Of a DNA stretch of 64,000 bases, positions 10,501 to 44,135 are shown one piece after another. Under the pieces are notes generated by a model that was not told where the DNA came from, ran no database searches, and worked only from the letters and a program-made list of their open reading frames with translations. The translations under genes were made by a program, and so were the position numbers. Position 1 is the stretch's first letter; every line of letters begins with the position of its first letter. The DNA is from Pyropia haitanensis (lineage: Eukaryota > Rhodophyta > Bangiophyceae > Bangiales > Bangiaceae). The stretch is taken from positions 4,323,409 through 4,387,408 of the forward strand of contig SDUX01000007.1 of NCBI GenBank assembly GCA_008729055.1, read 5' to 3'.

Positions 10501-13500
10501 CCACACAGGGCGACGCGTCTCGGTCTCCTCTACAAGATCCGCTACTCAGATTTCACTTTTGACAAACTCGCCGGGCCAACTTTGTCGCATTTCGGCCATT
10601 TTGACCACTTTTTGACACAAAGGGGTCCCTATGGGATGAAAAAGTTGATCTTTTCGGAAATCTGAGTTCGCCATTCGATCCGCCGACCTCGATTACATAC
10701 CCCTACAGTCTCCCTTTCCACCCCAGACACCCCCTTCCTACCCCTGGGGGGGGTCACGCAACTCTACCCGGGGATAAAAAACGGCACCTGGGACTTAGGC
10801 GTTTTTTGCCCCCCAAAGCCAAACACAATGTCACTCCCATCACCTCAATAACGGTCCCCAATTCCAAAACAAACCACACAGGGAGACGCGTCTCGGTCTC
10901 CTCTACAAGATCCGCTACTCAGATTTCACTTTTGACAAACTCGCCGGGCCAACTTTGTCGCATTTCCGCCATTTTGACCACTTTTTGACACAAAGGGGTC
11001 CCTATGGGATGAAAAAGTTGATCTTTTCGGAAATCTGAGTTCGCCATTCGATCCGCCGACCTCGATTACATACCCCTACAGTCTCCCTTTCCACCTCAGA
11101 CACCCCCTTCCTACCCCTGGGGGGGTCACGGAATGTGACCCGGGGATAAAAATTGGGGGGCCCCCCCAGCCAAACACAATGTCACTCCTATCACCTCAAT
11201 AACGGTCCCCAATTCCAAAACAAACCACACAGGGAGACGCGTCTCGGTCTCCTCTACAAGATCCGCTACTCAGATTTCACTTTTGACAAACTCGCCGGGC
11301 CAACTTTGTCGCATTTCCGCCATTTTGACCACTTTTTGACACAAAGGGGTCCCTATGGGATGAAAAAGTTGATCTTTTCGGAAATCTGAGTTCGCCATTC
11401 GATCCGCCGACCTCGATTACATACCCCTACAGTCTCCCTTTCCACCTCAGACACCCCCTTCCTACCCCTGGGGGGGTCACGGAATGTGACCCGGGGATAA
11501 AAATTGGGGGGCCCCCCCAGCCAAACACAATGTCACTCCTATCACCTCAATAACGGTCCCCAATTCCAAAACAAACCACACAGGGAGACGCGTCTCGGTC
11601 TCCTCTACAAGATCCGCTACTCAGATTTCACTTTTGACAAACTCGCCGGGCCAACTTTGTCGCATTTCCGCCATTTTGACCACTTTTTGACACAAAGGGC
11701 TCCCTATGGGATGAAAAAGTTGATCTTTTCGGAAATCTGAGTTCGCCATTCGATCCGCCGACCTCGATTACATACCCCTACAGTCTCCCTTTCCACCCCA
11801 GACACCCCCTTCCTACCCCTGGGGGGGGGTCACGCAACTCTACCCGGGGATAAAAAACGGCACCTGGGACTTAGGCGTTTTTTGCCCCCCAAAGCCAAAC
11901 ACAATGTCACTCCCATCACCTCAATAACGGTCCCCAATTCCAAAACAAACCACACAGGGAGACGCGTCTCGGTCTCCTCTACAAGATCCGCTACTCAGAT
12001 TTCACTTTTGACAAACTCGCCGGGCCAACTTTGTCGCATTTCGGCCATTTTGACCACTTTTTGACACAAAGGGCTCCCTATGGGATGAAAAAGTTGATCT
12101 TTTCGGAAATCTGAGTTCGCCATTCGATCCGCCGACCTCGATTACATACCCCTACAGTCTCCCTTTCCACCTCAGACACCCCCTTCCTACCCCTGGGGGG
12201 GTCACGGAATGTGACCCGGGGATAAAAATTGGGGGGCCCCCCCAGCCAAACACAATGTCACTCCTATCACCTCAATAACGGTCCCCAATTCCAAAACAAA
12301 CCACACAGGGCGACGCGTCTCGGTCTCCTCTACAAGATCCGCTACTCAGATTTCACTTTTGACAAACTCGCCGGGCCAACTTTGTCGCCTTTCGGCCATT
12401 TTGACCACTTTTTGACACAAAGGGCTCCCTATGGGATGAAAAAGTTGATCTTTTCGGAAATCTGAGTTCGCCATTCGATCCGCCGACTTCGATTACATAC
12501 CCCTACAGTCTCCCTTTCCACTCCAGACACCCCCTTCCTACCCCTGGGGGGGGTCACGCAACTCTACCCGGGGATAAAAAACGGCACCTGGGACTTAGGC
12601 GTTTTTTGCCCCCCAAAGCCAAACACAATGTCACTCCCATCACCTCAATAACGGTCACCAATTCCAAAACAAACCACACAGGGAGACGCGTCTCGGTCTC
12701 CTCTACAAGATCCGCTACTCAGATTTCACTTTTGACAAACTCGCCGGGCCAACTTTGTCGCATTTCGGCCATTTTGACCACTTTTTGACACAAAGGGCTC
12801 CCTATGGGATGAAAAAGTTGATCTTTTCGGAAATCTGAGTTCGCCATTCGATCCGCCGACCTCGATTACATACCCCTACAGTCTCCCTTTCCACCTCAGA
12901 CACCCCCTTCCTACCCCTGGGGGGGGTCACGCAACTCTACCCGGGGATAAAAAACGGCACCTGGGACTTAGGCGTTTTTTGCCCCCCAAAGCCAAACACA
13001 ATGTCACTCCCATCACCTCAATAACGGTCCCCAATTCCAAAACAAACCACACAGGGAGACGCGTCTCGGTCTCCTCTACAAGATCCGCTACTCAGATTTC
13101 ACTTTTGACAAACTCGCCGGGCCAACTTTGTCGCATTTCGGCCATTTTGACCACTTTTTGACACAAAGGGCTCCCTATGGGATGAAAAAGTTGATCTTTT
13201 CGGAAATCTGAGTTCGCCATTCGATCCGCCGACCTCGATTACATACCCCTACAGTCTCCCTTTCCACCCCAGACACCCCCTTCCTACCCCTGGGGGGGGT
13301 CACGCAACTCTACCCGGGGATAAAAAACGGCACCTGGGACTTAGGCGTTTTTTGCCCCCCAAAGCCAAACACAATGTCACTCCCATCACCTCAATAACGG
13401 TCCCCAATTCCAAAACAAACCACACAGGGAGACGCGTCTCGGTCTCCTCTACAAGATCCGCTACTCAGATTTCACTTTTGACAAACTCGCCGGGCCAACT

Positions 13501-15647
13501 TTGTCGCATTTCGGCCATTTTGACCACTTTTTGACACAAAGGGCTCCCTATGGGATGAAAAAGTTGATCTTTTCGGAAATCTGAGTTCGCCATTCGATCC
13601 GCCGACCTCGATTACATACCCCTACAGTCTCCCTTTCCACCTCAGACACCCCCTTCCTACCCCTGGGGGGGTCACGGAATGTGACCCGGGGATAAAAATT
13701 GGGGGGCCCCCCCAGCCAAACACAATGTCACTCCTATCACCTCAATAACGGTCCCCAATTCCAAAACAAACCACACAGGGAGACGCGTCTCGGTCTCCTC
13801 TACAAGATCCGCTACTCAGATTTCACTTTTGACAAACTCGCCGGGCCAACTTTGTCGCATTTCCGCCATTTTGACCACTTTTTGACACAAAGGGGTCCCT
13901 ATGGGATGAAAAAGTTGATCTTTTCGGAAATCTGAGTTCGCCATTCGATCCGCCGACCTCGATTACATACCCCTACAGTCTCCCTTTCCACTCCAGACAC
14001 CCCCTTCCTACCCCTGGGGGGGGGTCACGCAACTCTACCCGGGGATAAAAAACGGCACCTGGGACTTAGGCGTTTTTTGCCCCCCAAAGCCAAACACAAT
14101 GTCACTCCCATCACCTCAATAACGGTCCCCAATTCCAAAACAAACCACACAGGGAGACGCGTCTCGGTCTCCTCTACAAGATCCGCTACTCAGATTTCAC
14201 TTTTGACAAACTCGCCGGGCCAACTTTGTCGCATTTCCGCCATTTTGACCACTTTTTGACACAAAGGGCTCCCTATGGGATGAAAAAGTTGATCTTTTCG
14301 GAAATCTGAGTTCGCCATTCGATCCGCCGACCTCGATTACATACCCCTACAGTCTCCCTTTCCACCTCAGACACCCCCTTCCTACCCCTGGGGGGGTCAC
14401 GGAATGTGACCCGGGGATAAAAATTGGGGGGCCCCCCCAGCCAAACACAATGTCACTCCTATCACCTCAATAACGGTCCCCAATTCCAAAACAAACCACA
14501 CAGGGCGACGCGTCTCGGTCTCCTCTACAAGATCCGCTACTCAGATTTCACTTTTGACAAACTCGCCGGGCCAACTTTGTCGCCTTTCGGCCATTTTGAC
14601 CACTTTTTGACACAAAGGGGTCCCTATGGGATGAAAAAGTTGATCTTTTCGGAAATCTGAGTTCGCCATTCGATCCGCCGACCTCGATTACATACCCCTA
14701 CAGTCTCCCTTTCCACCCCAGACACCCCCTTCCTACCCCTGGGGGGGGGTCACGCAACTCTACCCGGGGATAAAAAACGGCACCTGGGACTTAGGCGTTT
14801 TTTGCCCCCCAAAGCCAAACACAATGTCACTCCCATCACCTCAATAACGGTCCCCAATTCCAAAACAAACCACACAGGGAGACGCGTCTCGGTCTCCTCT
14901 ACAAGATCCGCTACTCAGATTTCACTTTTGACAAACTCGCCGGGCCAACTTTGTCGCATTTCCGCCATTTTGACCACTTTTTGACACAAAGGGGTCCCTA
15001 TGGGATGAAAAAGTTGATCTTTTCGGAAATCTGAGTTCGCCATTCGATCCGCCGACCTCGATTACATACCCCTACAGTCTCCCTTTCCACCTCAGACACC
15101 CCCTTCCTACCCCTGGGGGGGTCACGGAATGTGACCCGGGGATAAAAATTGGGGGGCCCCCCCAGCCAAACACAATGTCACTCCTATCACCTCAATAACG
15201 GTCCCCAATTCCAAAACAAACCACACAGGGCGACGCGTCTCGGTCTCCTCTACAAGATCCGCTACTCAGATTTCACTTTTGACAAACTCGCCGGGCCAAC
15301 TTTGTCGCCTTTCGGCCATTTTGACCACTTTTTGACACAAAGGGCTCCCTATGGGATGAAAAAGTTGATCTTTTCGGAAATCTGAGTTCGCCATTCGATC
15401 CGCCGACCTCGATTACATACCCCTACAGTCTCCCTTTCCACCTCAGACACCCCCTTCCTACCCCTGGGGGGGGGTCACGCAACTCTACCCGGGGATAAAA
15501 AACGGCACCTGGGACTTAGGCGTTTTTTGCCCCCCAAAGCCAAACACAATGTCACTCCCATCACCTCAATAACGGTCCCCAATTCCAAAACAAACCACAC
15601 AGGGAGACGCGTCTCGGTCTCCTCTACAAGATCCGCTACTCAGATTT
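4541..15647 (+). repeat. 11-kb tandem array of two alternating units (373 and 351 bp)
   Basis: About 31 monomers of two related types. Type A (about 373 bp) contains GGTCACGCAACTCTACCCGG and GGCGTTTTTTGCCCCCC. Type B (about 351 bp) instead has GGTCACGGAATGTGACCCGG and TTGGGGGGCCCCCCCAG. They share the rest, including CCTCTACAAGATCCGCTACT and TGGGATGAAAAAGTTGATCT. They mostly alternate A-B (725-bp dimer), with B-B at 7179/7530 and 11153/11504 and A-A-A at 12606/12979/13352. Blocks about 3,975 bp apart share the same order and private variants. The array ends abruptly inside a type A unit near 15647. Small open frames of 60 and 78 codons recur in each unit only because the DNA does. Confidence 0.95.
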
Positions 15648-15959
15648 TATATCGCAGCCACCTCCGTGAACGTCTGTTGAGGCACGTACAGGGGGACTAA
15701 CACAGATACATACAGCCCTCGACATTGTGCATTCCCGTTGCTTGGCGGCCTCTGAGCGTCTCATAAATGGCTTCACTGTGTTCCGCAACCCTAACTTGCC
15801 CAGAATCGACCCTTAATACGCACATTTTCAGCCTAAAACGAGTCTTCAGAGCCCTAATGAGCCTTAACCGCCTGCTAATCACGCCTAATGCGCTTAATGG
15901 GGCCCTAAGTGACGCTTAACTCACCCTAACCACCCCTAAGTGCCCTTAACCACCCCCTA
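15648..15959 (+). other. Unique IGS segment between arrays
   Basis: The first 200 bp are non-repetitive, beginning TTATATCGCAGCCACCTCCG. They then pass into CCCTAA-like words (CCCTAATGAGCCTTAACCGC) leading into the 92-bp array. No gene or known signal is recognised. Confidence 0.55.
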
Positions 15960-18770
15960 ACTCGCCCTAAGTGCCCTTAGCAACCTTAACCCCCCACTAA
16001 TTTTCATTAACCCACCCCTAAGTGGCCCTAACCACCCCTTAACCCGCCCTAACTCGCCCTAAGTGGCCTTAGCAACCTTAACCCCCCACTAATTTTCATT
16101 AACCCACCCCTAAGTGGCCCTAACCACCCCTTAACCCGCCCTAACTCGCCCTAAGTGGCCTTAGCAACCTTAACCCCCCACTAATTTTCATTAACCCACC
16201 CCTAAGTGGCCCTAACCCACCCTTAACCCGCCCTAACTCGCCCTAAGTGCCCTTAGCAACCTTAACCCCCCACTAATTTTCATTAACCCACCCTTAAGTG
16301 GCCCTAACCCACCCTTAACCCGCCCTAACTCGCCCTAAGTGGCCTTAGCAACCTTAACCCCCCACTAATTTTCATTAACCCACCCCTAAGTGGCCCTAAC
16401 CCACCCTTAACCCGCCCTAACTCGCCCTAAGTGGCCTTAGCAACCTTAACCCCCCACTAATTTTCATTAACCCACCCCTAAGTGGCCCTAACCACCCTTA
16501 ACCCGCCCTAACTCGCCCTAAGTGGCCTTAGCAACCTTAACCCCCCACTAATTTTCATTAACCCACCCCTAAGTGGCCCTAACCCACCCTTAACCCGCCC
16601 TAACTCGCCCTAAGTGGCCTTAGCAACCTTAACCCCCCACTAATTTTCATTAACCCACCCCTAAGTGGCCCTAACCCACCCTTAACCCGCCCTAACTCGC
16701 CCTAAGTGCCTTAGCAACCTTAACCCCCCACTAATTTTCATTAACCCACCCCTAAGTGGCCCTAACCACCCTTAACCCGCCCTAACTCGCCCTAAGTGCC
16801 TTAGCAACCTTAACCCCCCACTAATTTTCATTAACCCACCCCTAAGTGGCCCTAACCACCCTTAACCCGCCCTAACTCGCCCTAAGTGGCCTTAGCAACC
16901 TTAACCCCCCACTAATTTTCATTAACCCACCCCTAAGTGGCCCTAACCCACCCTTAACCCGCCCTAACTCGCCCTAAGTGCCCTTAGCAACCTTAACCCC
17001 CCACTAATTTTCATTAACCCACCCCTAAGTGGCCCTAACCACCCCTTAACCCGCCCTAACTCGCCCTAAGTGCCCTTAGCAACCTTAACCCCCCACTAAT
17101 TTTCATTAACCCACCCCTAAGTGGCCCTAACCACCCCTTAACCCGCCCTAACTCGCCCTAAGTGCCCTTAGCAACCTTAACCCCCCACTAATTTTCATTA
17201 ACCCACCCCTAAGTGGCCCTAACCACCCCTTAACCCGCCCTAACTCGCCCTAAGTGCCCTTAGCAACCTTAACCCCCCACTAATTTTCATTAACCCACCC
17301 CTAAGTGGCCCTAACCACCCCTTAACCCGCCCTAACTCGCCCTAAGTGGCCTTAGCAACCTTAACCCCCCACTAATTTTCATTAACCCACCCCTAAGTGG
17401 CCCTAACCACCCCTTAACCCGCCCTAACTCGCCCTAAGTGGCCTTAGCAACCTTAACCCCCCACTAATTTTCATTAACCCACCCCTAAGTGGCCCTAACC
17501 ACCCCTTAACCCGCCCTAACTCGCCCTAAGTGGCCTTAGCAACCTTAACCCCCCACTAATTTTCATTAACCCACCCCTAAGTGGCCCTAACCACCCCTTA
17601 ACCCGCCCTAACTCGCCCTAAGTGCCCTTAGCAACCTTAACCCCCCACTAATTTTCATTAACCCACCCCTAAGTGGCCCTAACCACCCCTTAACCCGCCC
17701 TAACTCGCCCTAAGTGGCCTTAGCAACCTTAACCCCCCACTAATTTTCATTAACCCACCCCTAAGTGGCCCTAACCACCCCTTAACCCGCCCTAACTCGC
17801 CCTAAGTGGCCTTAGCAACCTTAACCCCCCACTAATTTTCATTAACCCACCCCTAAGTGGCCCTAACCACCCCTTAACCCGCCCTAACTCGCCCTAAGTG
17901 GCCTTAGCAACCTTAACCCCCCACTAATTTTCATTAACCCACCCCTAAGTGGCCCTAACCACCCCTTAACCCGCCCTAACTCGCCCTAAGTGCCCTTAGC
18001 AACCTTAACCCCCCACTAATTTTCATTAACCCACCCCTAAGTGGCCCTAACCACCCCTTAACCCGCCCTAACTCGCCCTAAGTGCCCTTAGCAACCTTAA
18101 CCCCCCACTAATTTTCATTAACCCACCCCTAAGTGGCCCTAACCACCCCTTAACCCGCCCTAACTCGCCCTAAGTGGCCTTAGCAACCTTAACCCCCCAC
18201 TAATTTTCATTAACCCACCCCTAAGTGGCCCTAACCCACCCTTAACCCGCCCTAACTCGCCCTAAGTGGCCTTAGCAACCTTAACCCCCCACTAATTTTC
18301 ATTAACCCACCCCTAAGTGGCCCTAACCCACCCTTAACCCGCCCTAACTCGCCCTAAGTGCCCTTAGCAACCTTAACCCCCCACTAATTTTCATTAACCC
18401 ACCCCTAAGTGGCCCTAACCCACCCTTAACCCGCCCTAACTCGCCCTAAGTGCCCTTAGCAACCTTAACCCCCCACTAATTTTCATTAACCCACCCCTAA
18501 GTGGCCCTAACCACCCCTTAACCCGCCCTAACTCGCCCTAAGTGGCCTTAGCAACCTTAACCCCCCACTAATTTTCATTAACCCACCCCTAAGTGGCCCT
18601 AACCCACCCTTAACCCGCCCTAACTCGCCCTAAGTGCCCTTAGCAACCTTAACCCCCCACTAATTTTCATTAACCCACCCCTAAGTGGCCCTAACCACCC
18701 CTTAACCCGCCCTAACTCGCCCTAAGTGGCCTTAGCAACCTTAACCCCCCACTAATTTTCATTAACCACC
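15960..18770 (+). repeat. 92-bp tandem array (IGS), about 30 copies
   Basis: TTAGCAACCTTAACCCCCCA recurs every 92 bp (15977, 16069, 16161, 16253 and so on to about 18732), a few units being 90-91 bp. Each unit runs through CTAATTTTCATTAACCCACC, CCTAAGTGGCCCTAACC and CGCCCTAACTCGCC. Variants CCACCCC/CCCACCC and GTGGCC/GTGCCC are distributed in patches, as expected from local duplication and homogenisation. Confidence 0.95.
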
Positions 18771-18784
18771 CCTTAAACGGCCTA

Positions 18785-30765: not shown

Positions 30766-31331
30766 TACCTGGTTGATCCTGCCAGTAGTCATATGCTTGT
30801 CTCAAAGATTAAGCCATGCATGTCTAAGTATAAACACTTTTATACACGTGAAACTGCGAATGGCTCATTAAAACAGTTATAGTTCCTTTGAGAACCACAC
30901 TACTTGGATAACCGTAGTAATTCTAGAGCTAATACATGCCGCAACGCCCGACTCACGAAGGGTGGTATTTATTGGATAAAAAACCATCGTGCTCCTTCCA
31001 GAGCGCTTTGAGATGATTCACAATAACTTGTCGGATCGCATGGCCTTGTGCTGGCGACTGCTCATTCAAATTTCTGCCCTATCAACTTTCGATGGTAGAG
31101 TATTGGTCTACCATGGTGTCGACGGGTAACGGGGAATTAGGGTTCGATTCCGGAGAGGGAGCCTGAGAAACGGCTACCACATGCAAGGAAGGCAGCAGGC
31201 GCGCAAATTACCCAATCCCGACTCGGGGAGGTAGTGACAAAAAATAACAATAGGGGGCCCTTTGGGCCTTCTAATTGGAATGAGAACAATTTAAATCCCT
31301 TATCGAGGATCCATTGGAGGGCAAGTCTGGT
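30766..31331 (+). rRNA. SSU (18S) rRNA, 5' exon
   Basis: Begins TACCTGGTTGATCCTGCCAG and continues through ATGCATGTCTAAGTATAAAC, the conserved ACCTATCAACTTTCGATGG-type region near 31080 and GGAGGGCAAGTCTGGT, the 5' side of the 530 loop. The gene has the orientation expected for the next rDNA unit after the LSU at the left edge. The exon ends at the U equivalent to E. coli 516, where a group I intron begins. Confidence 0.95.
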
Positions 31332-31895
31332 GAACCTAGTTCCACTCGTTGCTCGCCTCGTGCTCGGATCGCATATGCACAGGCGCACCACGTGAAGCGT
31401 CAAGCCCTCGTTAAAATAAAACAGCGCCAGATGTCTCTTTCCGGAAGCAGGGTGACTTGTGGAAGGCAAGCAGGCAAAAGATGGGAACCTATTTTCTTTT
31501 GGGAGAATTAATGAGCCCCCATCATACACTTCTAAATTGTCGGGGAGTGCCCGCCAGGCCTTTGACTACCGCGGTCCGCCGAGAGGTGAGAGCGAGCAAT
31601 CGTTCAGGACGCAGCAGTGTACGTAGTGGTACATGGATGGTTAAAACGTCAAGGGTAGGGTTGATCCGCAGGGAAGCGCGAGTGCTTTTTCCATGCGGCC
31701 TCCTTTTGGTGGCCGCGTGGCGAGATGCAAAGGCGAACCTTCAGAGACTCTAATGGAGTGGGCGCAAGCTTAAGGGAGAGTCCAATCCACTGGGAAAAAA
31801 ACCAGGTCCACAGGAGTAACGGGATTTTGCTCGCCCCGGAGGACTGTGGAAGGCGACCAAGCGTCTTATGGGCGCAGCGTTGTCGGGTATGAATG
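31332..31895 (+). ncRNA. Group I intron in SSU rRNA (site S516)
   Basis: SSU normally reads GTCTGGTGCCAGCAGCCGCGG. Here 564 nt separate GTCTGGT from GCCAGCAGCCGCGG, and the intron ends in G. Core elements are visible: P at about 31534-31546 (AAATTGTCGGGGA), Q near 31661-31672 (TTGATCCGCAGG), R at 31739-31755 (CTTCAGAGACTCTAATG) and S at 31770-31785 (TTAAGGGAGAGTCCA), with GAGACT/AGAGTCC forming P7. S516 introns are well known in red algae. No intact homing-endonuclease frame is seen; a minus-strand frame across 31137-31529 extends into the exon and is rejected. Confidence 0.9.
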
Positions 31896-32759
31896 GCCAG
31901 CAGCCGCGGTAATTCCAGCTCCAATTGCGTATATTAAAGTTGTTGCAGTTAAAACGCTCGTAGTCGGACCTCGGAGCGCCCTCAGAGCACATCCAACAAT
32001 GCCAGGATGGTCGCGAATACGTACACGTGGCTCTCATATTTGCTGGATGGGGTTCGAACGCTCAGCAGTCAATACAAACGGCCGCATGACGCCCCAACGG
32101 CAGACCATATATGACGAATCTGATTCATATATTTTTAGTAAGTACTCTGCATATTCGGATCGCAGGATGGGGTTGGTCTCTCCTGCGCCCCATTTTGTGT
32201 GAGAATGGGGAGCGAGCGGGACCATCCCCATCCTGTTGGCGACCTGTGAAACAAAATCGGACCAATGGGGTGACTGAAACGTGGCTGTGGACGATCGCGG
32301 GCTCGCATCCCAGCTGCTTCTCTGATCCCGATTTGAAGCTACATTCGAGGAATGGGGTTGGGTCTTTGTTCTCCCACCGGCGTGAACCCATCCTTCCGCC
32401 TTTTCGGCTAGTCTGCGCCCCGTTCCATACAAGTCCTGCAAGACCGGTTGGGGCACGCCCCAACAGAAATGGGCATCCAACCAGAAGCGCGCACGTGTTC
32501 GCTGAAATGAATCATTTGACCATTGGTCCCGACGTTGCTGGATGTGCTCTCACGGGCCGGGCTTCTGCCCTTGTGCCAGTGGGAGTTTGTCTCCTTTTGT
32601 CGGGACGCGGTGTGTGGGGCCTTGACTGGTTCCGCGCGTTTATACCTGCGGGCCGACCGTTTACTGTGAAGAAAGTAAAGTGTTCAAAGCAGGCCAATGC
32701 CTTGAATATGTGAGCATGGAATAATAGAATAGGACTTGGGCTCTATTTTGTTGGTTTCC
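31896..32759 (+). rRNA. SSU (18S) rRNA, second exon, truncated
   Basis: Resumes at GCCAGCAGCCGCGGTAATTC and includes AAAACGCTCGTAGTCGGAC, the signature that suggests a red alga. From there to GTGTTCAAAGCAGGCCAATG is about 720 nt, roughly three times the usual V4 length. After TAGGACTTGGGCTCTATTTTG and TTGGTTTCCA the match to SSU stops at about 32759. The expected continuation (GGACC...TAATGATTAATAGGGAC) and the 3' half of the gene are absent from the rest of the window. Confidence 0.93.
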
Positions 32760-34430
32760 AGTGCGGCCGCCCGGTCGCCCGCTCGCGGCGGTGCCGCCCC
32801 GCCCGCGGCACCGCGGCCCGCGTCGGGGCGGCCCGCGTGACGGCGGCGGCGGCGGCGGCGGCGACGGGGGCGGCGCTCTCTCTCCCCCCCCCCGCTGCCG
32901 CGGTCGACGGCGGCCACGCGCTGGACCCGGGGCTCGCCCTGGACCTGGCCCTCATCCCGCTGCGCCTCCCGCTGCTGGGCCGGCCGGCCGCCACGTGCGC
33001 GACTTCCAAACCAGGCTCACTCCCCAACCTCAAAACACTACCGCCCCAACGGCATAATCAGAGGCGCAACAGACAAAAAAGAAAGGGCTCCCCCGGAACA
33101 CAGCCACACAAAGCGCCATCGAGGCGGCGGTGCGACGTCGCCCGCCGCGCGCGCCGGCAACAGCCCCCCCACCTCCCCTCTCCGACCCCGGCGCCTCCTC
33201 TGCCGAGAAGAGCCGCCCCCACGGGGTGCCCAACGACCGCCGCACGTCTAGGTGCCAGCGGCGCAGCCGCCGGGACGCGGCGTCCAGGCTGGCCGGCGCG
33301 CCGGCGGCCGTGGCGTCGGCGGCGGCGGGCGGGCCGGGGGCGCCGCCGAGGCGGGGTCGCCCCCCGCTCCCGCCGCCGCCCCTCGCCGGCCCCGCTGCGG
33401 GCGGCCCCCGCCCGCCCCCGCCGACCGCGCGGCGTGCGCGCGGGCGACGCGCGCGTGGAAGTGCGCTGCCACCCCCGCAAACACCGCCGCCGCTGCCGCA
33501 GCGGTGCCCGACACTGCAGGGGGGGCGGCCGGTAGGCAGCACTGCGCGCCCGGCGGCGGCGGCGGCGGGTGCATGGCGCGGCCACCGTGGCAGGCGGGAC
33601 GTCGCCGCCCGCACTCGCGTCGCCCGAAGGCGCGGGGCAGCGGCGACGGCGCCTCGCAACGGGCCACGCGGGCAGCCGCGGCGACGGGCGTGGCGGGGGT
33701 GAGCGGCCGCGACGTGCGCGGCGGGGGCGGCGGTGGGATGACGAAAGCGGGCGGGTGGAGGCGCCTCCGCGTGCGCCTTCGCAGGCGTGCGGCGCGCGCC
33801 GCCACCGCCCACCTGCCGGTCGGCTGGCGCACCGTCGGGGGCCGACGCAGCGTCGCGGGCAGCCGCGCGGCCGCGTCGCCACCCGACGCGGCCCGTGGCG
33901 CGGGCGCCGCTGCGGCGGCGGCGGCGGGCGGCGCCGCCCGCCGCCCCCGCGCCGGCGCCACGGCAGTGCGGGCGGTGCGGGCGGGCGTGCCGGGCGCGGG
34001 GGGGGGGGGGGGGCGAGGAGGACGCCCGCCGCCGCGGACGCCGCCGGGCGGTCGCTGTGGGCGGCGACGGTAGTGGAGTATGGGGGCGCCTCCGCCACCG
34101 CCAGCGGCGGCGCCGCCCGCGCGGCGCCCGCGCCCGACCGAGGGTGACGATGGCGGGCGCATCCGGGCGTGGGCGCGCAAGAAGCACACAGACGGGTGGA
34201 TGGGGGCTGGCGCCAAACGGAGGGGGGGAGTGTGGCGGCAGGGACTGGCCCGTGGTGCACGGCCGACACTGGCCCGAAAAATGCCTGGAGGGGGCCGTGA
34301 CGCCATGCCCTGGCGGCCCTTTCGGACGAGGATTGCCGCGCCCACGATCAGAAAAATGCAGGAGGAGGTGCCCTGTCGCGCGGATGGCCACTGCCAGAGG
34401 TTTTTTTTTCCCCGGGTTTTTTTCCTGGCG
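32760..34430 (-). other. Very GC-rich segment, possible minus-strand gene, not resolved
   Basis: All six frames are open over long stretches because of the base composition, so openness is not evidence. The most protein-like reading is on the minus strand: a segment near 33260-33100 with LDAASRRLRRWHLDVRR and GTPWGRLFSAEE ending in a stop near 33030, and upstream of it GVAAHFHARVARAHAARS near 33480-33400 in another frame. These could be one gene broken by a frame change. No family is recognised. Another stretch (32980-33110) is less GC-rich and holds nothing I can name. Confidence 0.25.
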
Positions 34431-34918: not shown

Positions 34919-36920
34919 ATGCCCGGCACAGAGGCGTCGAGCGCGACGCTGGAGGACGACGATGCCGCAGGTAAGCACGGCTCCGACCTAGACGCCGACG
35001 ATGCGTGCGGCGACGCGTCGGCCACGGCGTCAGAGGACGACGTCCGTGTCGGCGACGACGACGAGGATGCTGCTGCGTGGAGCGAGGCGTCGGACGCGTC
35101 AACTGCTGAGACCGACGAGGGCTCGGACGCGGCGGGTGGCGACGCGCAGGAAGCGCCCCCCCTGCCGCCCGACGAGCGAGACTCGCTGCTGGCCGCGCTG
35201 CGCGTGAAACGCTGGCGACTGCGGCTGCTTCTGGTGCGCGTCGAGGCTGTGGCACGGGCGCGCGCCCCCCCCCCAGGCGATGCCACCCTCGACACGGTCG
35301 TCGCCGCTCTGCGCACAGCCGCGGCGGTGGTGGACGCCCCCCCCCCCCCCCCCGCCCGACGCCACCACGGACGTGGCGCATCGCACGGCGGTCGTTGACA
35401 CGGCCACCCGCGACGAGGAAGCTGTGACCGCCGCGGTGACCACTGCAGCCGAATGGGTCGCCGCGCACGCGCCGGACGGCGTCGACGCGTCACGGCTGGC
35501 CGCCCGAGCGGTGCGGGCGGCGGCGCTGGTCGGCCCGACGGCGCGCGGCCTCGCCCGCCGCTCGGTCGAGGCGGAGCCCCGACGCGCAGCGGCACCGGCC
35601 GGCCCACAACCCCCCCCCCCTGCCAGAACTGCTGCGGCCGCACGCACCCGAGGCGGTCCAAGGTGTGCCCGGCCAGGGCGTGGGGTGGCGCGTCCCTCCC
35701 GCATGTGCACGATCGGGGCGAGGACGTGGCGGCAACCGATCCGTACGCCAACCGCGCGACGGTAACGCACACCGTGACGGTGCCGCTGGGGCTTGTTGTG
35801 CGCGCGGTGGCGCCTGCCCCTGGCGACGCGGCCGCTGCGTCGGGCCTGACGGCGGCATTTGAGGCGGTGGCGCGCCATGCCACACACTTTGACCTGTGCC
35901 TGCGACTGTTGTGGGTCAACACGGTTCACCGACTGCTGCCGGCGACTGGTGCGGACGCGTGGGACGCGGCACTGCCGGCAACGACGCAGGGGTGGACGGA
36001 CTTTTGGAACTGGGCGTCGAACGCAGTCAGCTGCCGTGGCGCGTTCGGCGGGAGCCTGTCCGGGGAGGATGTGTGCGGAACGTGTGGGCGGGCTCGCGAG
36101 CACCGGCTCAGTCGCCCTGCATACACACGGCTGCTGACCCCCCCCCCCCACCACCCGCCAAGCCGCCGCGCGGTGCGGCGCCCACGCTTCTTGCTGCGGC
36201 GGAGATGGCGCTGAGGGACTTATCACCTGCCCTCGTCTCTCCGTGCCACGAGCACCTTCCGGGCAATAACGATCGCATGCGGTGGACGCAGACCGTGACG
36301 CGGCTGGCGCAGACGACGGCGCAGCGCGTGACGCGTGCGCTGCGCGGCCTGGCGGGCGCCGTGACTGACGCGGCCCCCCCCGCCGTGGGCGCACGCGGCA
36401 GCGACGGACGCCGAGGAGTGTTTGCAGCAGCTCTGAGGTGCTTTTCGCGTGGCGTCGACGAGCCGACCGGGGCAGCCGCAAGAAAGTTCGTCGCTGCCGT
36501 GCCGGACGCCGCGGCGCGCGCGGCGGTACTGGCGTCGATCGCTGCGATACGCGCGCGCGTGCAGCCCGTGAGGCAGCGGCCGACGCGCCTCTTCCCGACG
36601 GGCGGCCACGTCGCTGTCGTGGCGCGTTGGTGGGCATACGTCCCCTTTGTCGTGGCCGTGCAACGCGAGGGCATCCGCCGCCCGTTCGCGTTGGTCCCCG
36701 CCAAGTCCGCGCCGCTGCACATGTACGGCACGTTTACGCGGCTGCGCCTGACCCGTTTGGTGAACTCCCTGCGCGTTGGTGACGTCGCTTTCCGCGCCGC
36801 GGTGCGGGACCGTGGCGCGGCCGCGTTCGCTGCGCGCCTGCCCGGCCGGCCGATCGGCAGCGGAACGCGTTCTGTCGGGGCGAACCTGACTACCAACGGC
36901 GTGGCGGTGGCCTTTACGGT
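34919..36920 (+). CDS. Fanzor nuclease, N-terminal half (interrupted gene)
   Basis: The start is ACCACCATGC at 34919, a good initiation context. The product opens with a strongly acidic, Ala/Ser/Asp-rich region (about 80 residues), then helical sequence (ERDSLLAALRVKRWRLRLLL), a cysteine cluster CQNCCGRTHPRRSKVC (from about 35621) and CGTCGRAREH (about 36075). The last 250 residues contain WWAYVPFVVAVQREGIRRPF, FALVPAKSAPLHMYG and NLTTNGVAVAF, which fit the pre-RuvC part of Fanzor proteins, where a TDGVxV-type motif precedes the RuvC fold. The frame shifts at C17 (35337-35353), C11 (35610-35620) and C12 (36138-36149). Coding similarity stops at 36920, where an inserted element begins; the protein resumes at 38829. 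Assignment rests mainly on the C-terminal half and the collinear arrangement. Confidence 0.6.
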
Positions 36921-38828
36921 CGTCACTATGGACTCAAATCGCTACACAAGGGCTACACAGGCTACACACATACACAACCCCCCAGGAATCATGTTTCCTG
37001 GGGGGGGTCCAAAAGTCATCGCAATCTCGGCTTGACGCCCCGAAGGCGACCGAGCTTTCGTGAAGAACCCGGCTGCAACAGCTCCGGCGGTCAGAAGTGC
37101 CTCGCGCCGGAACTGCCAAATCGGCCTCCGATTGGCTGGATCGCCCAAAGAAGTCAACTGTCCCCGTTGGAGCGCAGCTCAGTCTCGGATCCGCGAGACC
37201 GGACTGCCTTACAGCTCGGCTGTGGTCCCTCTGAGCATCCTGAGCCTCAAGGGTCCTGTGCGGGGGGGGGCAACCTGAGCATCGCTGTGTCGACTCGCGA
37301 ACGGCCCGTCGCCACGTGGTGAGGGAACAACTGGTCGACCTCGGAAGCTCTCCCGCACTTCGACGATCACGCGGCGGCGCGTCACGCGCCGAGAGGTTGT
37401 CAAAGACAATCTCGCTGGGGACAAATTACTAGAAGCGTTGCAGCGTCACCCCGCTTCATTGCACACTTCGTCGCTGCCCAAGTAAGGGTTGGGGGGAAGC
37501 TTCGTGCTGATCGACCAATAGGCAGGTCGCATACGTATCCAATTTGTACACGCGTTCGACACTCTGTCCTCTGTGTCGGAGTTGAAGACTAAAGTCTTCT
37601 TTTTGCAGGTCCGATCCCGACCGCTGAGAATCGAGACGCCGCGAGACCCAAAGCTTCGGCCGCGGACCAAGCTGTGGACTCGTTTCCGGCCACCTCTCGC
37701 CGTCTCGCGCTAAGTGGGCACGCTCTCTCACTCAGACGCACTACACCCAGCACGACCCTCTCCTCCTTCCCCTCGAGGTGCCCGACCGTCTACCAATGGA
37801 TCGAGGCACTTCTTCGTCCGACGGCACGGCTGTAGGTGCGCGCGTTCACCGTTGTCCATCCGTGCGCTAACGTCATGAAAGATTTGCAGGGCGAGCGCGG
37901 CTCCTTGGTGACTCGCCGACCGCTCGGCAGCTGGAGGGAGATCGTTCTTGTTCTGCGCGTGAGTGTTTGGCATGGAGGTGTCTAACTTTGCCCTTTTGCC
38001 GCGTCCATCGCTGCATGGTCGGTTCTTGGTTTGCATGTATTGTACGTGGATCTGTTGTGCGTGGATCGGGATCAAAAAGACAAGGCATGAACAAAGACAC
38101 TGGTGTAGCTGCGCGGTGCGGAGTTGGCTGAGGCAACAGGGGGCAAGAAGTCGGAGGACGTGGAGAGGGGGAGCGGCGTTGAGGATGGCAGAGGGCATTG
38201 AGGAAGGTGGAGAGAGTTGAAGATGGGGGTCGCGTTGATATGGGTGGGGGGCGTGGGTGCGTGTAGGGTGGGGGCGACGCACCGGACTTGTGGGCGGGGG
38301 GTGGAGATGCTAGCGGAGTGCTAGAGGAGAGCTCGCCGCCCCCCTCCTCACCACCTGCAGGCAGGTCGCCGCTACGGTTGAGAGGTGAGGGGGGGGAGGG
38401 CGGGGGCGGGCACTCCCGCTGCATGAAGCAGCTGGTACAAAGAGAAATAAAGCGTGCACATGGTACCATGAAGAATCGCACGTGGCACAGGAAGGAGCAA
38501 CGTGGCGGCCAGTGGGCCACCAGAGCACCCTGTTTTGATGCCCTTGAACGGGACTGTCAGCCTTCTATATGCACTGTGGTTGGTCCATGAGTCGTCGATC
38601 GACACTCTCTGATTGGGTGGCGTGGCAACACGGTCCGTGGCATACCTCATTTCGATGAGACGAGTCGGGGTCATCACAACGGGATACACAGGCTACACAC
38701 ATACACACATACACACATCCTACACAACCCTTCGAAACTGACCCCGTGAGGCCCGACTTCGGGCCCCGGCCAACTCATCACAAAGCTATCGCAATCGGGG
38801 TGTGTATCAAATTTTGTCGATAGTGACG
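36921..38828 (+). mobile_element. 1.9-kb non-coding element with CGTCACTAT inverted ends, inserted in Fanzor
   Basis: The left end reads CGTCACTATGGAC (36921-36933) and the right end GTCGATAGTGACG (38816-38828), inverted repeats matching at 12 of 13 positions with weaker similarity inward. Bases GT flank both sides, and removal of the element with one GT joins the two Fanzor halves in frame. Inside, a direct pair of subterminal blocks occurs: TACACAGGCTACACACATAC at 36954 and 38685, each followed by a hairpin and then by ATCGCAATC...GG (37018 and 38788). GC content is visibly lower than in the surroundings and no convincing protein is encoded. The ends recall CACTA-type DNA transposons, but the classic 3-bp target duplication is not clear. 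An intron derived from such an element is the alternative, yet no GT-AG pair in the right phase was found at the ends. Confidence 0.65.
36978..37006 (+). repeat. 11-bp perfect inverted repeat (hairpin) near left end of the element
   Basis: CCCCCCAGGAA and TTCCTGGGGGG are separated by 6 nt. At the other end the corresponding position holds a different hairpin, GGCCCGA/TCGGGCC at 38750-38765. The two hairpins occupy the same place within the duplicated subterminal block although their sequences differ. Confidence 0.8.
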
Positions 38829-40831
38829 GTGTCCCGGCCGGCGACGCCTGCAGAAGCCGAGGCTGCGGACATTGCTGCTGCGAAGCGGCGGCGCGATGGG
38901 GCGCGCGTGCGGCGGCGGGTCGCGGGGTCACCCACCACGCAGCTAGAAAAACAAGGCTGCCCCGTGGCTGGCGTGTCGCGGCTGACTGTGGTGTCGGCGG
39001 ACCCTGGTGTAGCCACGGTGCTGACGGCCGTGTCAAGCGGCCCGACGGCCGCTCAGTGGGCGGCCCGCAGCCGCGTGTGGGCGACCCGATGCGCGCGAGC
39101 GAGGCTGGTCGCGGTTGAGGCGCTGATGCGCGCTGCGCTGGCGGTGGAGGCTGGAGTCACCGCTGCGGCCGGCCTGACAGAGGGCCAGATGGCGGAGGTT
39201 GAAGCGGCGGCCGCGGCGACAGCTGGGACGCCCCCCGCCGTGGCCACCAAGGCGGCCGCTGGCAAGCGCCAAGCCGTGGGTGCCGGGTCTGGCGCGGACA
39301 GGAAGCGGCCACGCGGCGGAGCGGCGGCCGCCGGCAGCACAGACGCGTTGCCCCCCCCCGCTGCTGCAGCCGCGGTCATGCCGCCGCGCTCAGGTCGCCG
39401 GTGCGTGCGGCGCGTGCGCGGCGCCGCGCGGCGCCTGCGACGCACGGCTCGCGTCGACCTGTGCAAGGCGCTACGCGAGCTGCTGGCGGCAACCGGGCGC
39501 GGGAGGTGGCGGGTGCCGCGCCACGCGGCGGTGCGAGTTGCGCTGGCGTGCCTGCCCCGCGCGACGCGCGGCATGGCGGTGGCAGACGTGGACGACGGGC
39601 GTCCGCTGGCGGAGGCGTATCTGACGGACCGCGCGGCAGCAGTGACGGCCGACCGCGCGGCCGCGGGTACGTACGCCGGTGCGCTTAGGGCACTGGCGGC
39701 GCGAGTGCGTGCGGCGACGCGCGCGAGCCGCGGGTGGCGCGCCCCCCCCCCCCCGGGGCGGTGTACAGCCTGTCGCGCGAGCGGTACCACGAGGAGAGCG
39801 GGAATGGGATGACGACGCGGGCGGTAGCCGACCACCGCGCGGCGGCCGTGGCGCGCATCGCCGAGCTGGGCGATGCCGCGGGCGTGCGGACACCCGAGCA
39901 GGTGACGGAGCGCGCGACGTTGTGCGTGGGCGACGCGGAAGCGGTGCGAGTCGCGTCACGCGAGTGGCTGGCCGCCCGCTGCAAGCCCGTGTATGAGGCG
40001 GTGTGGGGGTCGGCGGCGACGCGCGGGCTGCGCGAGGCGCGGCTGTACGGGGTGCTGCAGCGCGGGCGGTTTGCGGCGCGCGTCGCGCGGGAGCTGACGG
40101 GCGGACGTCTGCGGCGGGTTGTCAACGGGTCGGTGGTGGCGGTGGCGCTGGGCGACGCGGCGACACGCGGCGGGGCGACGCAGCTGTGGCGGCGCCTGCG
40201 CCACCTGTGCTGGACGGTGGACGTGCCCGAGCGCAACACGAGTGCAGCTTGCGACGGCTGCCACACGCGGCTGGCGCTGGTGTTCCCGACGCCCGCGTCT
40301 CCGCCGCAAGTGCCCCGCGGCACGCGCGTGTGCGGGCGGCGCCGTGGCGTGCGCGGCCGCACCGGCCGGCCGAGCGGCGTGCAGCGCGGGTGGTGGGACC
40401 GCAGCGCGCCGGTGCGGTACGCCCGCCGGCGGGCGGCGTGCCGCGCCGAGGCGGAGAACGCCGCGACGGCACGGGCGGCTGCACACCCGCGGCCGCACGC
40501 GGGCCCGGTCTTTCGGGCGGACCGCAAGGCGGTGGTGTGGTGCGTCAAGGTTTGCGTGGAGCCGACGTGTGCCCGAGGGATGGTGAACCGCGACGTGACG
40601 GCGGCGGCCAACCTCGGCTGGCGCACATGGCAGTGGATACGCGGGCGCCCGTGCCACCCGTTCCGGACCGCGGCCCACGTACGGTGGCCGCGGATCGACT
40701 GGAACGGCCGCACGGGCGGGGCGGCGGATGGGCGCGGCGCGGGCGGGGCAGCGGCGGACCCGCTGGTCGCGGCGAGCGGGGAGGGGGGCGGCGCGGCGGC
40801 GGCTGGTGGCGGGGAGGCACCCCACGCGTGA
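38829..40831 (+). CDS. Fanzor nuclease, C-terminal half with RuvC domain
   Basis: Eukaryotic TnpB relative, a programmable RNA-guided DNA nuclease family. RuvC-I is VVSADPGVATVLTAV (catalytic Asp codon at 39000). A basic region (KRRRD, DRKRPRG) follows, then SLSRERYHEESGNGM, typical of the Fanzor linker. Near the end come VVAVALGDA, then the DVPERNTSAACDGCHTRL motif, in which Glu (codon at 40229) sits at the alternative Fanzor RuvC-II position and the first CxxC of the zinc ribbon follows. VCVEPTCARGMVNRDVTAAA carries the second Cys pair and the RuvC-III Asp (codon at 40592). All catalytic and zinc ligands appear intact. One frame change occurs at C13 (39742-39754). The stop is at 40831. No other transposition gene is adjacent. 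Alternative: another TnpB-like protein family. Confidence 0.75.
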
Positions 40832-41262
40832 GACGGTTCAACACCGCGGTACTCACGCGGGGCGCCCCCCGCGGCTGGCCGTTGCAGCGGCCCCTCCCTC
40901 TCCGACGAGCCGCAACGCGGGCAATCGTCGGATGTTCATTATCACTGTGGGTGAGAATCTTTGCGAGTGCGAGGGTTTTTACCAAGGGGTCGGTCCCCCC
41001 ACAGCGGTAAGCAGAGCTCGGCCGTGCGCGGAGATCCCGCGACCGCCGCCGCCGGCGCCGCCGCCGGCACCGCCCGACGGGCGCCCGCCGCGGCGGCCAT
41101 CGACGGCGGCTGGCCGCGCCACCATCGCTGCCGCCGCTTCCCCAGACGTCACCGGCACGCGCCGCGCACCCCCCCCCCCCGCGTGGCGCCCCCCCCTTTT
41201 TTCCGAGCTGGCGGCCTCCCTCCCCCCCCCCCCCCCCGCCTTTGCTTCCCACCCCTCGCCGC
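40832..41262 (+). promoter_or_regulatory. Fanzor 3' flank and ABC1-kinase upstream region
   Basis: In Fanzor systems the guide (omega) RNA is usually encoded at the 3' end of the element, overlapping or following the nuclease gene. Here the 3' flank contains an inverted repeat CTGTGGG (40945-40951) / CCCACAG (40998-41004) and a shorter GACGAG...CGTCGG pair around 40900-40931, which could be part of such an RNA or of the element end. The later part is C-rich and precedes the ATG at 41263. No element boundary or promoter consensus can be fixed. Confidence 0.3.
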
Positions 41263-41424: not shown

Positions 41425-44135
41425 CGCCGCCGGCAGCGTCGTCGACGCCCTCTGCCGCGGCCGCCCCCGCCCGCGCGCGGCGGCGGCGACGGCACGGCGG
41501 GCGGCCGCGTTTTGGGCCGCCGCCGCCCGCGTGTACGTGGCGTACAAGGTGACCCCGCGGCGCGCGGCGGCGGCGGCGGCGGCGGCTGCCGCCAGGGCGG
41601 CAACCACCACCGCCGCGGGTGGCACCGGCACGGCGGCGGCGGCGGCGGCGACTGCAGCGGCGGCGGCGGCGGCCGAGGCGGCCGAGGCGGTGTGGGCAGA
41701 GCAGCACGCGTGGGCGGGGGAGGAGATGCGGCGGGTGTGCGTCGGGCTGGGCGGCTTTTACGCCAAGGCGGGGCAGTTTTTGGCGACGCGGGTGGACTTT
41801 GGTGCGTTTGTGGACGGCAGGAGGGGGGGGGGAGGGGGGGGGGGGGGGGGAGGGATGGCACGGCGGGAGGGGTCGAGTGGGGTAGGGGATGGCGGTGCCG
41901 CACCGAGGGGAGCGGGTGGCACTCGCGGTGGCGGCCTGCTGGTCGTGGCGCTTGGCCCCCCCCCCTGCTCTGTGTGGGTAGTCAGCGAGCGTGTGGGCGG
42001 GGCTACCGGCGGGGGTCCCGCTACCGTGCTGCTCGTGCGGCTGGTCGTCAACCGCCCGAGCGTGTGGCTGACGATGGGGACGACCGCTCCTTGCCTGGGG
42101 TGCACGTGTGGCGGGGCGTACGTTTGGTCACCCCGCCGCATCGGTCCATTACCCCCCCCCTCCTCCCCCCCCCCCCCCCCCCCCCCGTCCCCCCCTCTCT
42201 TTTCCTTCCCGGGCCTCCCCGCCCCGTGCTGTTGGCAGTACCGCTCCCCATCTGCCGCGCCCTCCACACGGTGCACACGGAGCTGCCGGCGCTCCCCCCC
42301 GACGTCCCCCCCGCGCTCGTCGAGGCGGCCTTCCCCGGCCACCGGCTCGCCAACCTCTCCCCCACCCCCATCGCCGTCGCGTCCGTTGCGCAGGTGCACA
42401 CTGCAGACGCGGTGGCGGCGGGCGCGGCCGGCCCGGCCGCGCACCCCCCCCCCCCCCCCCCACCCGCCCGTCGACGACGCCCGTGGTGGTCAAGCTCACC
42501 CGCCCCGGCGGCCGCCGCGTCATGGCCGCGGACATGGCCAACGTGGGCGCCCTCGCGCGCCTCCTCACCGCCTCGGACGTGCCGTTTGACCTGTCGGGCG
42601 CGGTGGCGGAGCTGCGGTCGCAGCTCGCCGCGGAGTTTGACCTCGCCGCCGAGGCCGCGACGCTCACCGAGGTGGGCGGCAACCTCGCCGCGCTCGCCGC
42701 GGGCCGCCGCGGGCCCGCGCTGTGGCGGTGGCGCCGCTGGGGGGGGCCGTCACCCTGCCACGGGTGGTGGGCGGCATGGCCAGCCGGGGGGTGCTGGTGA
42801 TGAGCCGCGTGGGGGGGGTGCCGCTCAGCCGGCTGGGCGCGGGGGGGGGGGGGGGGCGCCGGGGGGGGACGCCAGCCCCGCCGTGGCCGCCGCCGATGGG
42901 GGGGGGGGGGAGGCGGCGGCCGCCGCCGCCGCCGCCGCCGCCGCCGCGGAGGGGGGGGTGCGCGCCCGGATGGCGGCGTGGGCGCAGCGCCGCGCCGTCC
43001 GTGGCATCCTGCGCAAGCTGTACCGCGCGTACGGGGCGATGGTGCTGGTGGACGGCCTCCACCACGCGGACAGGTACGGGAGGGGCCGGGGGGGGGGGGG
43101 GGGGAGGCACCAGGGGTGGGAGGCGGCTGTTTGGAGAGGGTGCGGGGGAGGGGCGCGCGCTCGCGCGTGCGGCCGCCTGCCGCTGCCGGCAACGTGCATG
43201 CCGACCCGTGGGCGCCGCGGTGGGGAGCGGCACGCCGACGGCGCCGCCGTTGCCCTGCGGGACTGGCTATTGACACGCGCACGTCCGTCCTCCCCCCTTC
43301 CCCCCCCCCTCCTTTCGCGTGGCGTCTCTGCTCCTCCCCCTCTACGACGTCCCCACTGTCCGCCCCCTCTCCCCTACCCCTTCCCCCCCCCCACCGCCCC
43401 CTCCCCCGCGGCAGCCACCCCGGCAACATCCTCATTGACCGCCACTGGGCGGGCGTGCGCGTCGGCCTCGTCGACTTTGGGCAGGCCAAGCGCCTCAGCC
43501 GCGCACACCGCCTCGGCATTGCGCGGCTGGTCGTGGCGCTCGACGATGGCGACGCCGCCGCCACCGCCGCGGGCCTCGCCGCGCTCGACATCCACATTGG
43601 CGGGCCCGCGGGGGCGGCGGGGGGAGGCGGCGGCGGCGGCGGCGTCGCCGCCGCCGCCGCCGCCGTCCCGGCCGCCGCCGCCGCGTCGGGCGTCGCCGCC
43701 GCGGCGGCCGCGGGGGTCCCCCCGCCGGCGTCCCCCCCCGCCGCCGCCGCCGCCGCCGCCACACCCCCCCCACCCCCACCTCTACGCAGCCCCCCCCGCC
43801 GCGGCGGCCGCTCATCGCGCGGCGGCTGGGCGTCCGGTCGCGCCCCCCCCCCCCCACGGCCTGTCCATCGCGCAGCGCCACGCGTACGGCATGTTTGACA
43901 CCGCCGCCCGCCCCGGCGTCGACGGCAGCCCGTGGGGTGGCGACGACCTCGCCGCGTCGCCCGTCACGCGCTTCCCGCGGGACCTCTTCTTCCTCCTCCG
44001 GACGGTGCAGATCCTGCGCGGCGTCGCGGCGGGCGCGGGCGTCACGGGGGGGGGGGGATCGTCGCCGAGTGGGCGCCGCTCGCGCGCGCCGTCCTCCGCG
44101 CCGAGGGCGCCGCCGCCGCCGCCGTCGCCGCCTAG
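41263..44135 (+). CDS. ABC1/UbiB (ADCK)-family atypical kinase
   Basis: Members are atypical protein-kinase-like ATPases of mitochondria and plastids, many linked to ubiquinone or plastoquinone lipid metabolism. Start GCCGCCATGG (41263). Exon 1 has a poly-Gly run, YVAYK and the hallmark LGGFYAKAGQFLATRVDF. Exon 2 has PIAVASVAQVHTAD (family AxSxAQVH), VVVKLTRPGG with the likely Lys, and LHTVHTELPALPPDV. After GVLVMSRVGGVPLSRL comes VDGLHHAD, and exon 3 starts SHPGNILIDRHW, then GLVDFGQAKRLS (DFG motif). The C-terminus has FPRDLFFLLRTVQILRG and IVAEWAPLARAVLRAE, stop at 44135. The usual HADPHPGN reads HADSHPGN across the splice. Frame changes occur at C18 (42444-42461), near 42710, at C13 (43843-43855) and G12 (44046-44057). 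Exact subfamily and organelle are not determined. Confidence 0.85.
41802..42238 (+). other. Intron 1 of the ABC1-family kinase gene
   Basis: Donor G|GTGCGT after GACTTTG and acceptor TTGGCAG|TACCG. Removing it joins phase-1 codons to give RVDF-VPLPICRALH, matching the family. A long polypyrimidine stretch (C and T runs, 42150-42215) precedes the acceptor. Confidence 0.85.
43074..43414 (+). other. Intron 2 of the ABC1-family kinase gene
   Basis: Donor CAG|GTACGG and acceptor GCGGCAG|CCACCC. Splicing joins HHAD-S-HPGN, restoring the family HADxHPGN motif with Ser at the variable place. A C-rich tract precedes the acceptor. Confidence 0.85.

Follow-up and report, generated by a model that had tools for sequence, protein, structure and literature searches.

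A terminal-inverted-repeat element inside a copy of a large Fanzor-like mobile gene family in the red alga Pyropia haitanensis

In the red alga Pyropia haitanensis, a gene carrying the motifs of Fanzor RNA-guided nucleases is interrupted by a 1,908-bp DNA transposon, and the interrupted gene belongs to a family with many further copies in the same genome. The stretch of DNA analysed here—the window—comprises 64,000 nucleotides (nt) of contig SDUX01000007.1 of assembly GCA_008729055.1 (positions 4,323,409 to 4,387,408 of the forward strand; C9:4323409-4387408 in the genome searched, which comprises 52.9 Mb in 136 contigs). An earlier note made from the letters of the window had described a Fanzor gene split by a 1.9-kb element, and the arrangement is very probably that of a transposon within a transposon, an element with terminal inverted repeats (TIRs) lying inside a copy of a divergent Fanzor1-like mobile family. 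The outer unit would be one copy of a red-algal mobile-element family whose product, judging from its motifs (RuvC DPG, alternative Glu, zinc ribbon and NRD), is probably a very divergent Fanzor1-like RNA-guided endonuclease, the nuclease part being preceded by a long N-terminus that is acidic and contains a zinc-knuckle-like cluster. An RNA of 180 nt between the stop codon and the 3' end would form the scaffold, with the guide supplied by sequence beyond the 3' end. The 1,908-bp element inserted just before RuvC-I with a 2-bp duplication, its transposase presumably being encoded elsewhere, and the window copy could at most live on by serving open relatives as a template or as a source of RNA.

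The insert is a non-autonomous TIR DNA transposon. A whole-genome search found the element over the whole length of the query at 95-100% identity in 11 places, the window included, among at least 66 matches (a lower bound, 40 of 67 candidates having been scored), and many further pieces in the same genome are related at about 70% identity. In eight loci, one of them the window, the element measures 1,907-1,908 bp and has the ends CGTCACTAT...ATAGTGACG. Seven of the eight show a 2-bp target duplication (GT, AC, AT, GT, AA, GT and AT), the locus without one, L036, being a point against this description. Four of the eight loci differ from the window insert by only 0, 2, 3 and 4 positions, and the insert family has therefore moved recently. 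The empty site (...GCCTTTACGGTGTCCCGG...) is present in three loci about 99% identical to the host gene (L009, L010 and L011), which read straight through the points, 36920 and 38829, at which the halves had been said to end and resume. Multiple copies, inverted repeats, target duplication, empty sites and uninterrupted paralogues thus all bear out the split gene of the earlier note. Alignment of the same three loci joins window position 36920 directly to 38826 with a 5-bp overlap, and a 5-bp duplication ACGGT with an insert end at 38825 had been taken from these alignment coordinates; it was dropped, since CGT/ACG is found in all eight copies examined and so belongs to the element, leaving a duplication of 2 bp. 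The GC content of the insert is 59%, against 74% and 78% in the coding sequence on either side. Its longest frame encodes 227 amino acids (aa), and three open reading frames (ORFs) from it gave no Pfam match at an E-value (E) of 1. In its inverted repeats, short duplication, near-identical copies and lack of any coding capacity found, the insert is like the non-autonomous TIR elements that resemble miniature inverted-repeat transposable elements (MITEs). The CGTCACTAT ends and the 2-bp duplication have been assigned to no named superfamily, and the labels Transib and CACTA were not kept.

The possibility had also been raised that the insert is spliced out. A mobile intron, with the window copy still making its Fanzor, would suit the frame-neutral position of the insert and the empty site that reads through in frame, and the left end of certain other copies resembles an acceptor when inspected by eye. 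Exact excision, however, would require GT...CG rather than GT...AG ends; the insert was therefore rejected as a spliceosomal intron, and rescue by splicing is unlikely. The element is moreover found at other places, where it carries inverted repeats of its own and is flanked by 2-bp duplications, and the frame is still broken at 39742-39754 once it is removed, which together make the intron highly improbable. As a transposon inside a transposon, the interruption itself is ordinary damage.

The host gene without its insert measures 4,003 nt or about 1,334 codons, in agreement with the roughly 1,330 residues first estimated; the coding sequence breaks at 36918-36920 and restarts at 38829-38831. 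The motifs quoted from it (RuvC-I, DVPERNTS, CxxC/CxxxxC and NRD) are where they had been placed, and the acidic N-terminus and extra Cys cluster remarked upon at the outset recur in paralogues. Neither half, however, is one open frame: four frame changes, judged by paralogue alignment, had been missed, each in a poly-C tract (35337-35353, 35610-35620, 36138-36149 and 39742-39754). The window copy cannot yield a full-length protein because the insert breaks the gene, as do, at face value, the poly-C frame changes.

These breaks may be homopolymer errors of the assembly, in which case the window copy could have worked until the insertion. Every frame change falls within a run of 11-17 C, and three of the tracts vary in length among four near-identical copies (17, 25, 20 and 20 at 35337; 11, 12, 11 and 12 at 35610; 12, 13, 12 and 11 at 36138). 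The homologue P0003, from a read-derived contig of 4.5 kb, likewise favours errors: its 733 aa correspond to the C-terminal part of a protein of this subfamily, in a single open frame with no insert. On the other side, the tract at 39742-39754 has 13 C in all four assembled copies, three of which are without the insert, so that, taken as assembled, every one of the four has a break between RuvC-I and RuvC-II, and P0003 may derive from a different copy or a different strain. Either this tract has been miscounted in the assembly, or some copies are open and others broken. Assembly error is a possibility of real weight that nonetheless falls short of likely, and the suggestion that the window copy was functional until recently is unsupported, since the C-terminal break is common to the three insert-free copies.

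The transposon-in-transposon reading draws on the wider family as well. The C-terminal piece of the gene has 40 matches in the genome, 22 of them covering at least 330 of its 357 residues, and for ten of these 22 the frame stays open, uninterrupted by any stop, over 1,380-1,556 codons measured from stop to stop, a count that leaves out two short matches reported with frames of about 16,700 codons. Three open paralogue proteins were read, with 1,527 (L015), 1,552 and 1,393 aa. The search for an uninterrupted paralogue, suggested in the earlier note, was thus answered by the three insert-free copies and by longer open relatives. The ratio of nonsynonymous to synonymous substitution rates (dN/dS) lies at 0.23-0.47 when subfamilies are compared and at 0.46 for a pair of close copies, rough values given a dS of about 1 in most comparisons, and the N-terminal half of the window gene aligns with that of an uninterrupted paralogue over 237 codons at a dN/dS of 0.23. 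From these comparisons the family looks to be changing under purifying selection. Six of the 16 homologues found are named, each as a hypothetical protein of Pyropia yezoensis; together with the eukaryotic 18S sequence in the window, these names make a bangialean host very probable.

Some members of the family have surroundings of their own. Three partial copies (45% identity) stand in a row at G000:C8:4609039-4632152, spaced 9-14 kb apart. The L011 copy on C40 (C40:7225-17200; with L087 and L088) is split in its turn: some 19.3 kb of other sequence lie within it, and what appears to be an 8-bp duplication, AACGGAGG, accompanies the split. Identical left sequence, ending ...GTGCCTCACA, meets the gene at two different points in L023 and L025 (oriented positions 5253 and 5614), and another element therefore seems to insert into the family.

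The assignment to Fanzor rests on motifs, not on profiles or structure. According to the available part of PMC10711439, Fanzors carry DPG at RuvC-I, a Glu six residues before the CxxC and a RuvC-III Asp 4-8 residues past the zinc finger. The host family has the DPG (ADPGVATVLTAV in the window; residue 879 in L015 and 733 in L022), the Glu six positions ahead of the first CxxC (ERNTSAACDGC both in the window and in L015, EHNSSQACAGC in L022) and the RuvC-III Asp within the stated distance (CVEPTCARGMVNRD, CVERACSRQLVNRD). When two paralogues were shuffled at constant composition, the ordered signature (DPG; Glu-x6-CxxC; second Cys pair; NRD), its spacings chosen with the Fanzor-like family in view, arose once in 5,000 shuffles for one and never in 5,000 for the other; of the 95 window frames of at least 200 aa, only the host gene's own has the zinc-finger part. 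The signature recurs across subfamilies that are 33-55% identical, with L039, P0001 and P0005 as exceptions. The eukaryotic mobile setting and the RNA-like 3' end also favour a Fanzor, and on its sequence the family is in all likelihood Fanzor-like.

Other results count against this assignment. Not all members keep the motifs: in L039 the Glu is replaced by Lys and NRD is missing, P0001 also lacks NRD and P0005 has IRD. The elements stand in the right order, but the spacing from the Asp to the TS, 417 residues in L022 and 451 in L015, exceeds the 125-275 of the 2013 TnpB/Fanzor pattern (D-X(125,275)-[TS][TS]XX-C4 zinc finger-X(5,50)-RD, as given in the accessible text of PMC3627910). The Pfam profile PF07282 (Cas12f1-like TNB) matched four of seven homologues on the expected stretch, in each case below its cut-off (E 0.001, 0.0049, 0.06 and 0.073; best score 19.6 against a cut-off of 26.3 bits, for P0007 at E 0.001). 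It matched none of the other three, and no protein scanned gave a match above the cut-off. In P0005 the unrelated BES1_N (E 0.066) slightly outscores TNB (E 0.073), one of two paralogues reached TNB at E 1.5, below the cut-off, and five window pieces compared with Pfam had no TNB match. A six-frame genome search with PF07282 returned two sub-cut-off places, neither in the Fanzor-like family. In the PDB the pieces and a profile of 12 rows found nothing, and the other queries, a paralogue and profiles, gave only Bud21 and XIAP at chance level. Comparison by hhalign with a seven-member TnpB alignment covered 15-19 columns, the TSxxCxxC stretch, at P 0.01-0.06 and a probability of 0.9-3.9%, and AlphaFold models from 6- and 12-sequence alignments, with a mean predicted local distance difference test score (pLDDT) of 35.7 and 38.5, were unusable. 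The earlier note had named two outcomes that would speak against a Fanzor: the first, no profile match above the cut-off, is what was found, whereas the second was not, the N-terminal half matching no unrelated family above the cut-off. Profiles and structure thus do not establish the identity that it proposed, which the diagnostic motifs, the mobile eukaryotic setting and the RNA-like 3' end support.

The host gene could, on these results, instead encode a mobile protein of red algae that is related to neither Fanzor nor TnpB and whose zinc ribbon only resembles theirs, as the absence of significant profile, PDB and structure support would allow. This is unlikely in view of an ordered four-part signature that is rare by chance and shared by such divergent subfamilies, and of weak TNB matches placed where they are expected in four of the seven homologues. 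The sequence search may itself be a weak test of Fanzor identity: the PDB matches of two TnpBs (36 and 33) include none named Fanzor, and Fanzor chains are, we assume, present in the PDB copy searched. The two sub-cut-off TNB places, G000:C101:60860-60967 (E 0.0125) and G000:C7:744926-745051 (E 0.0376), are possibly remnants of other Fanzors or TnpBs.

The Fanzor-like unit has a fixed 3' end. The window and 18 of 20 fetched loci share a homologous 3' end (window 41011, ...GGTAAG) beyond which the flanks diverge, the exceptions being L018 and L021, and the subfamily at 55% identity ends in ...CATACTC or CATTCTC. The final 180 nt fold better than shuffled sequences (z -2.76; 1 of 200 shuffles equal or better), and this 3' RNA module is found at 27 places in the genome, 12 of them at 99-100%. 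In an alignment of five distinct sequences in eight rows, the predicted RNA structure keeps 87.9% of its pairs against a shuffled mean of 80.0% (0 of 500 shuffles). Cells changed on both sides number 16 against a mean of 6.7 (0 of 500) and pairs with such changes 9 against 6.0 (11 of 500); the number of further pair types, 21 against 18.9 (58 of 500), does not stand out. Covariation exceeds all 500 shuffles on three of five measures, and versions of the structure slid along the sequence pair at 44-57%. A point against the RNA is that one small alignment supplied both its structure and the covariation test, and an Rfam scan of 40700-41100 gave only matches under the gathering score (RF03066 and RF04159). 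As read from the alignment, the segment 40832-41011 is the natural candidate for an omegaRNA.

Compared in bins of 100 bases, the window copy and L015 are 59-80% identical as far as 40128; identity is 87% in the bin that follows and 98-100% from 40229 onwards, and the two have identical 3' RNA rows. The last ~800 bp, with zinc ribbon, RuvC-III, RNA and end, therefore appear to have been exchanged or homogenised as a block. A bolder reading, which we consider speculative and improbable as it stands, is that the nuclease-end domain moves between subfamilies in one cassette with the guide RNA and the 3' terminus, within a Bangiales lineage of giant Fanzor-like nucleases that is invisible to current profiles and copied in a one-ended, 3'-end-fixed manner, insertion-broken copies serving as donors of RNA and ends. 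Three approaches were taken to the left end of the unit, by truncation points, by a 9.0-kb homology and by the junction with 18S sequence described below, and none established it: the truncation points vary among individual copies, the 9.0-kb stretch shared by two members of the 55% subfamily ends without visible duplication, and the 18S junction (32763/32764) looked like an end, but two other copies have identical sequence to its left. The coordinates of the features are collected in Table 1.

Table 1. Features of the interrupted Fanzor-like unit, in window coordinates
Feature	Coordinates	Strand	Evidence
Fanzor-like gene remains, in several frames	34919..40831	+	ORFs; 40 genome matches of the C-terminal piece; paralogue alignment
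CX2CX4HX6C cluster, zinc-knuckle-like, N-terminal region	35621..35668	+	Sequence; kept in P0001, P0002, L015 and L022
Target duplication GT, left copy	36919..36920		Locus comparison; empty sites L009-L011
Non-autonomous TIR element, 1,908 bp, no domain found	36921..38828		Genome copies; ends and duplications in 8 loci; 3 ORFs without Pfam match
Left terminal inverted repeat CGTCACTAT, perfect over 9 bp (79% over 28 bp)	36921..36929	+	Sequence, locus comparison
Right terminal inverted repeat	38820..38828	-	Sequence, locus comparison
Target duplication GT, right copy	38829..38830		Locus comparison
RuvC-I ADPGVATVLTAV, catalytic Asp 39000-39002	38997..39032	+	DPG conserved in paralogues
13-C tract, frame change between RuvC-I and RuvC-II/III	39742..39754	+	Length identical in L009, L010 and L011
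DVPERNTS with alternative Glu (40229-40231), then CxxC (40250-40261)	40220..40261	+	Sequence, motif scan
CxxxxC (40553-40570) and RuvC-III NRD (40586-40594; Asp 40592-40594)	40553..40594	+	Sequence, motif scan
Conserved structured 3' region, omegaRNA candidate, whose end coincides with the 3' end of the unit	40832..41011	+	Locus alignment, folding, covariation

Around the unit, window positions 30769-32763 hold the 5' part of an 18S ribosomal RNA (rRNA) gene (Rfam match at 30769-31935, model positions 4-605), which stops at 32763 and is joined there to the region upstream of the Fanzor-like unit. The junction is common to L009, judged by letters, and to L010, judged by alignment, the right flanks being different. 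Within the 18S sequence, at about 31981-32550, lies a repeat of about 565 bp with inverted ends (GAGCACATCCA...), which is found at 25 more places at 97-99%, one of its copies standing directly past the 3' end of the Fanzor-like copy L010. Long tandem arrays, perhaps ribosomal spacer, occupy 404-28342 (for example a 351-bp unit 30 times at 4660-15647 and a 92-bp unit 31 times at 15943-18773), and just past the 3' end of the unit, at 42072-43895, is an ABC1-type kinase gene (Pfam E 7.6e-07, with a second piece at E 6.3e-04, below the cut-off).

The host family shares several traits with Fanzor1. It is mobile, multi-copy, eukaryotic and red-algal, as is CMe-1A, the Fanzor1 of the red alga Cyanidioschyzon merolae with about 150 copies (Bao and Jurka 2013; PMC3627910, available text), and it has a variable N-terminal region and a [TS][TS]xxC zinc ribbon followed by RD. 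It differs in its size of 1,330-1,550 residues, the prototype SPu-1-1p having 633 in the same text, in the longer Asp-to-TS spacing given above, in a second Cys pair (C-x4-C) lying 97 residues past the first in the window copy, and in the N-terminal zinc-knuckle-like cluster; no sequence-level link to Fanzor1 was found in this analysis. The Chlamydomonas Fanzor1 elements CRe-1, 2 and 3, which that text places with Helitron2 and one-ended transposition, offer a further likeness in the fixed 3' end with a nearby hairpin and the variable 5' ends, although no Helitron ends or RepHel link have been shown for the host unit. With TnpB of IS200/IS605, of which E. coli InsQ was compared, the family has in common the TSxxCxxC stretch, a RuvC-III of RD type and an RNA expected from the 3' end, and it departs from TnpB in the alternative type of its Glu and in the low hhalign probability. 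Fanzors were shown to be RNA-guided nucleases in 2023 (PMC10432273, in the portion available). The literature searched, which leaves out most subscription papers, held no paper joining Fanzor with Pyropia or with Porphyra, and the accessible portion of PMC10820777 treats no red-algal Fanzor.

The interesting part of the finding is the Fanzor-like family, which would be a divergent variant of known Fanzors. Red seaweeds appear to harbour a Fanzor-like lineage that has expanded, encodes an unusually large protein and carries a putative guide RNA, ten long copies of it being open in a single genome. If the protein is a nuclease, the family would extend the known range of Fanzors in both size and sequence, and would provide a natural case of an RNA end and a nuclease domain changing together.

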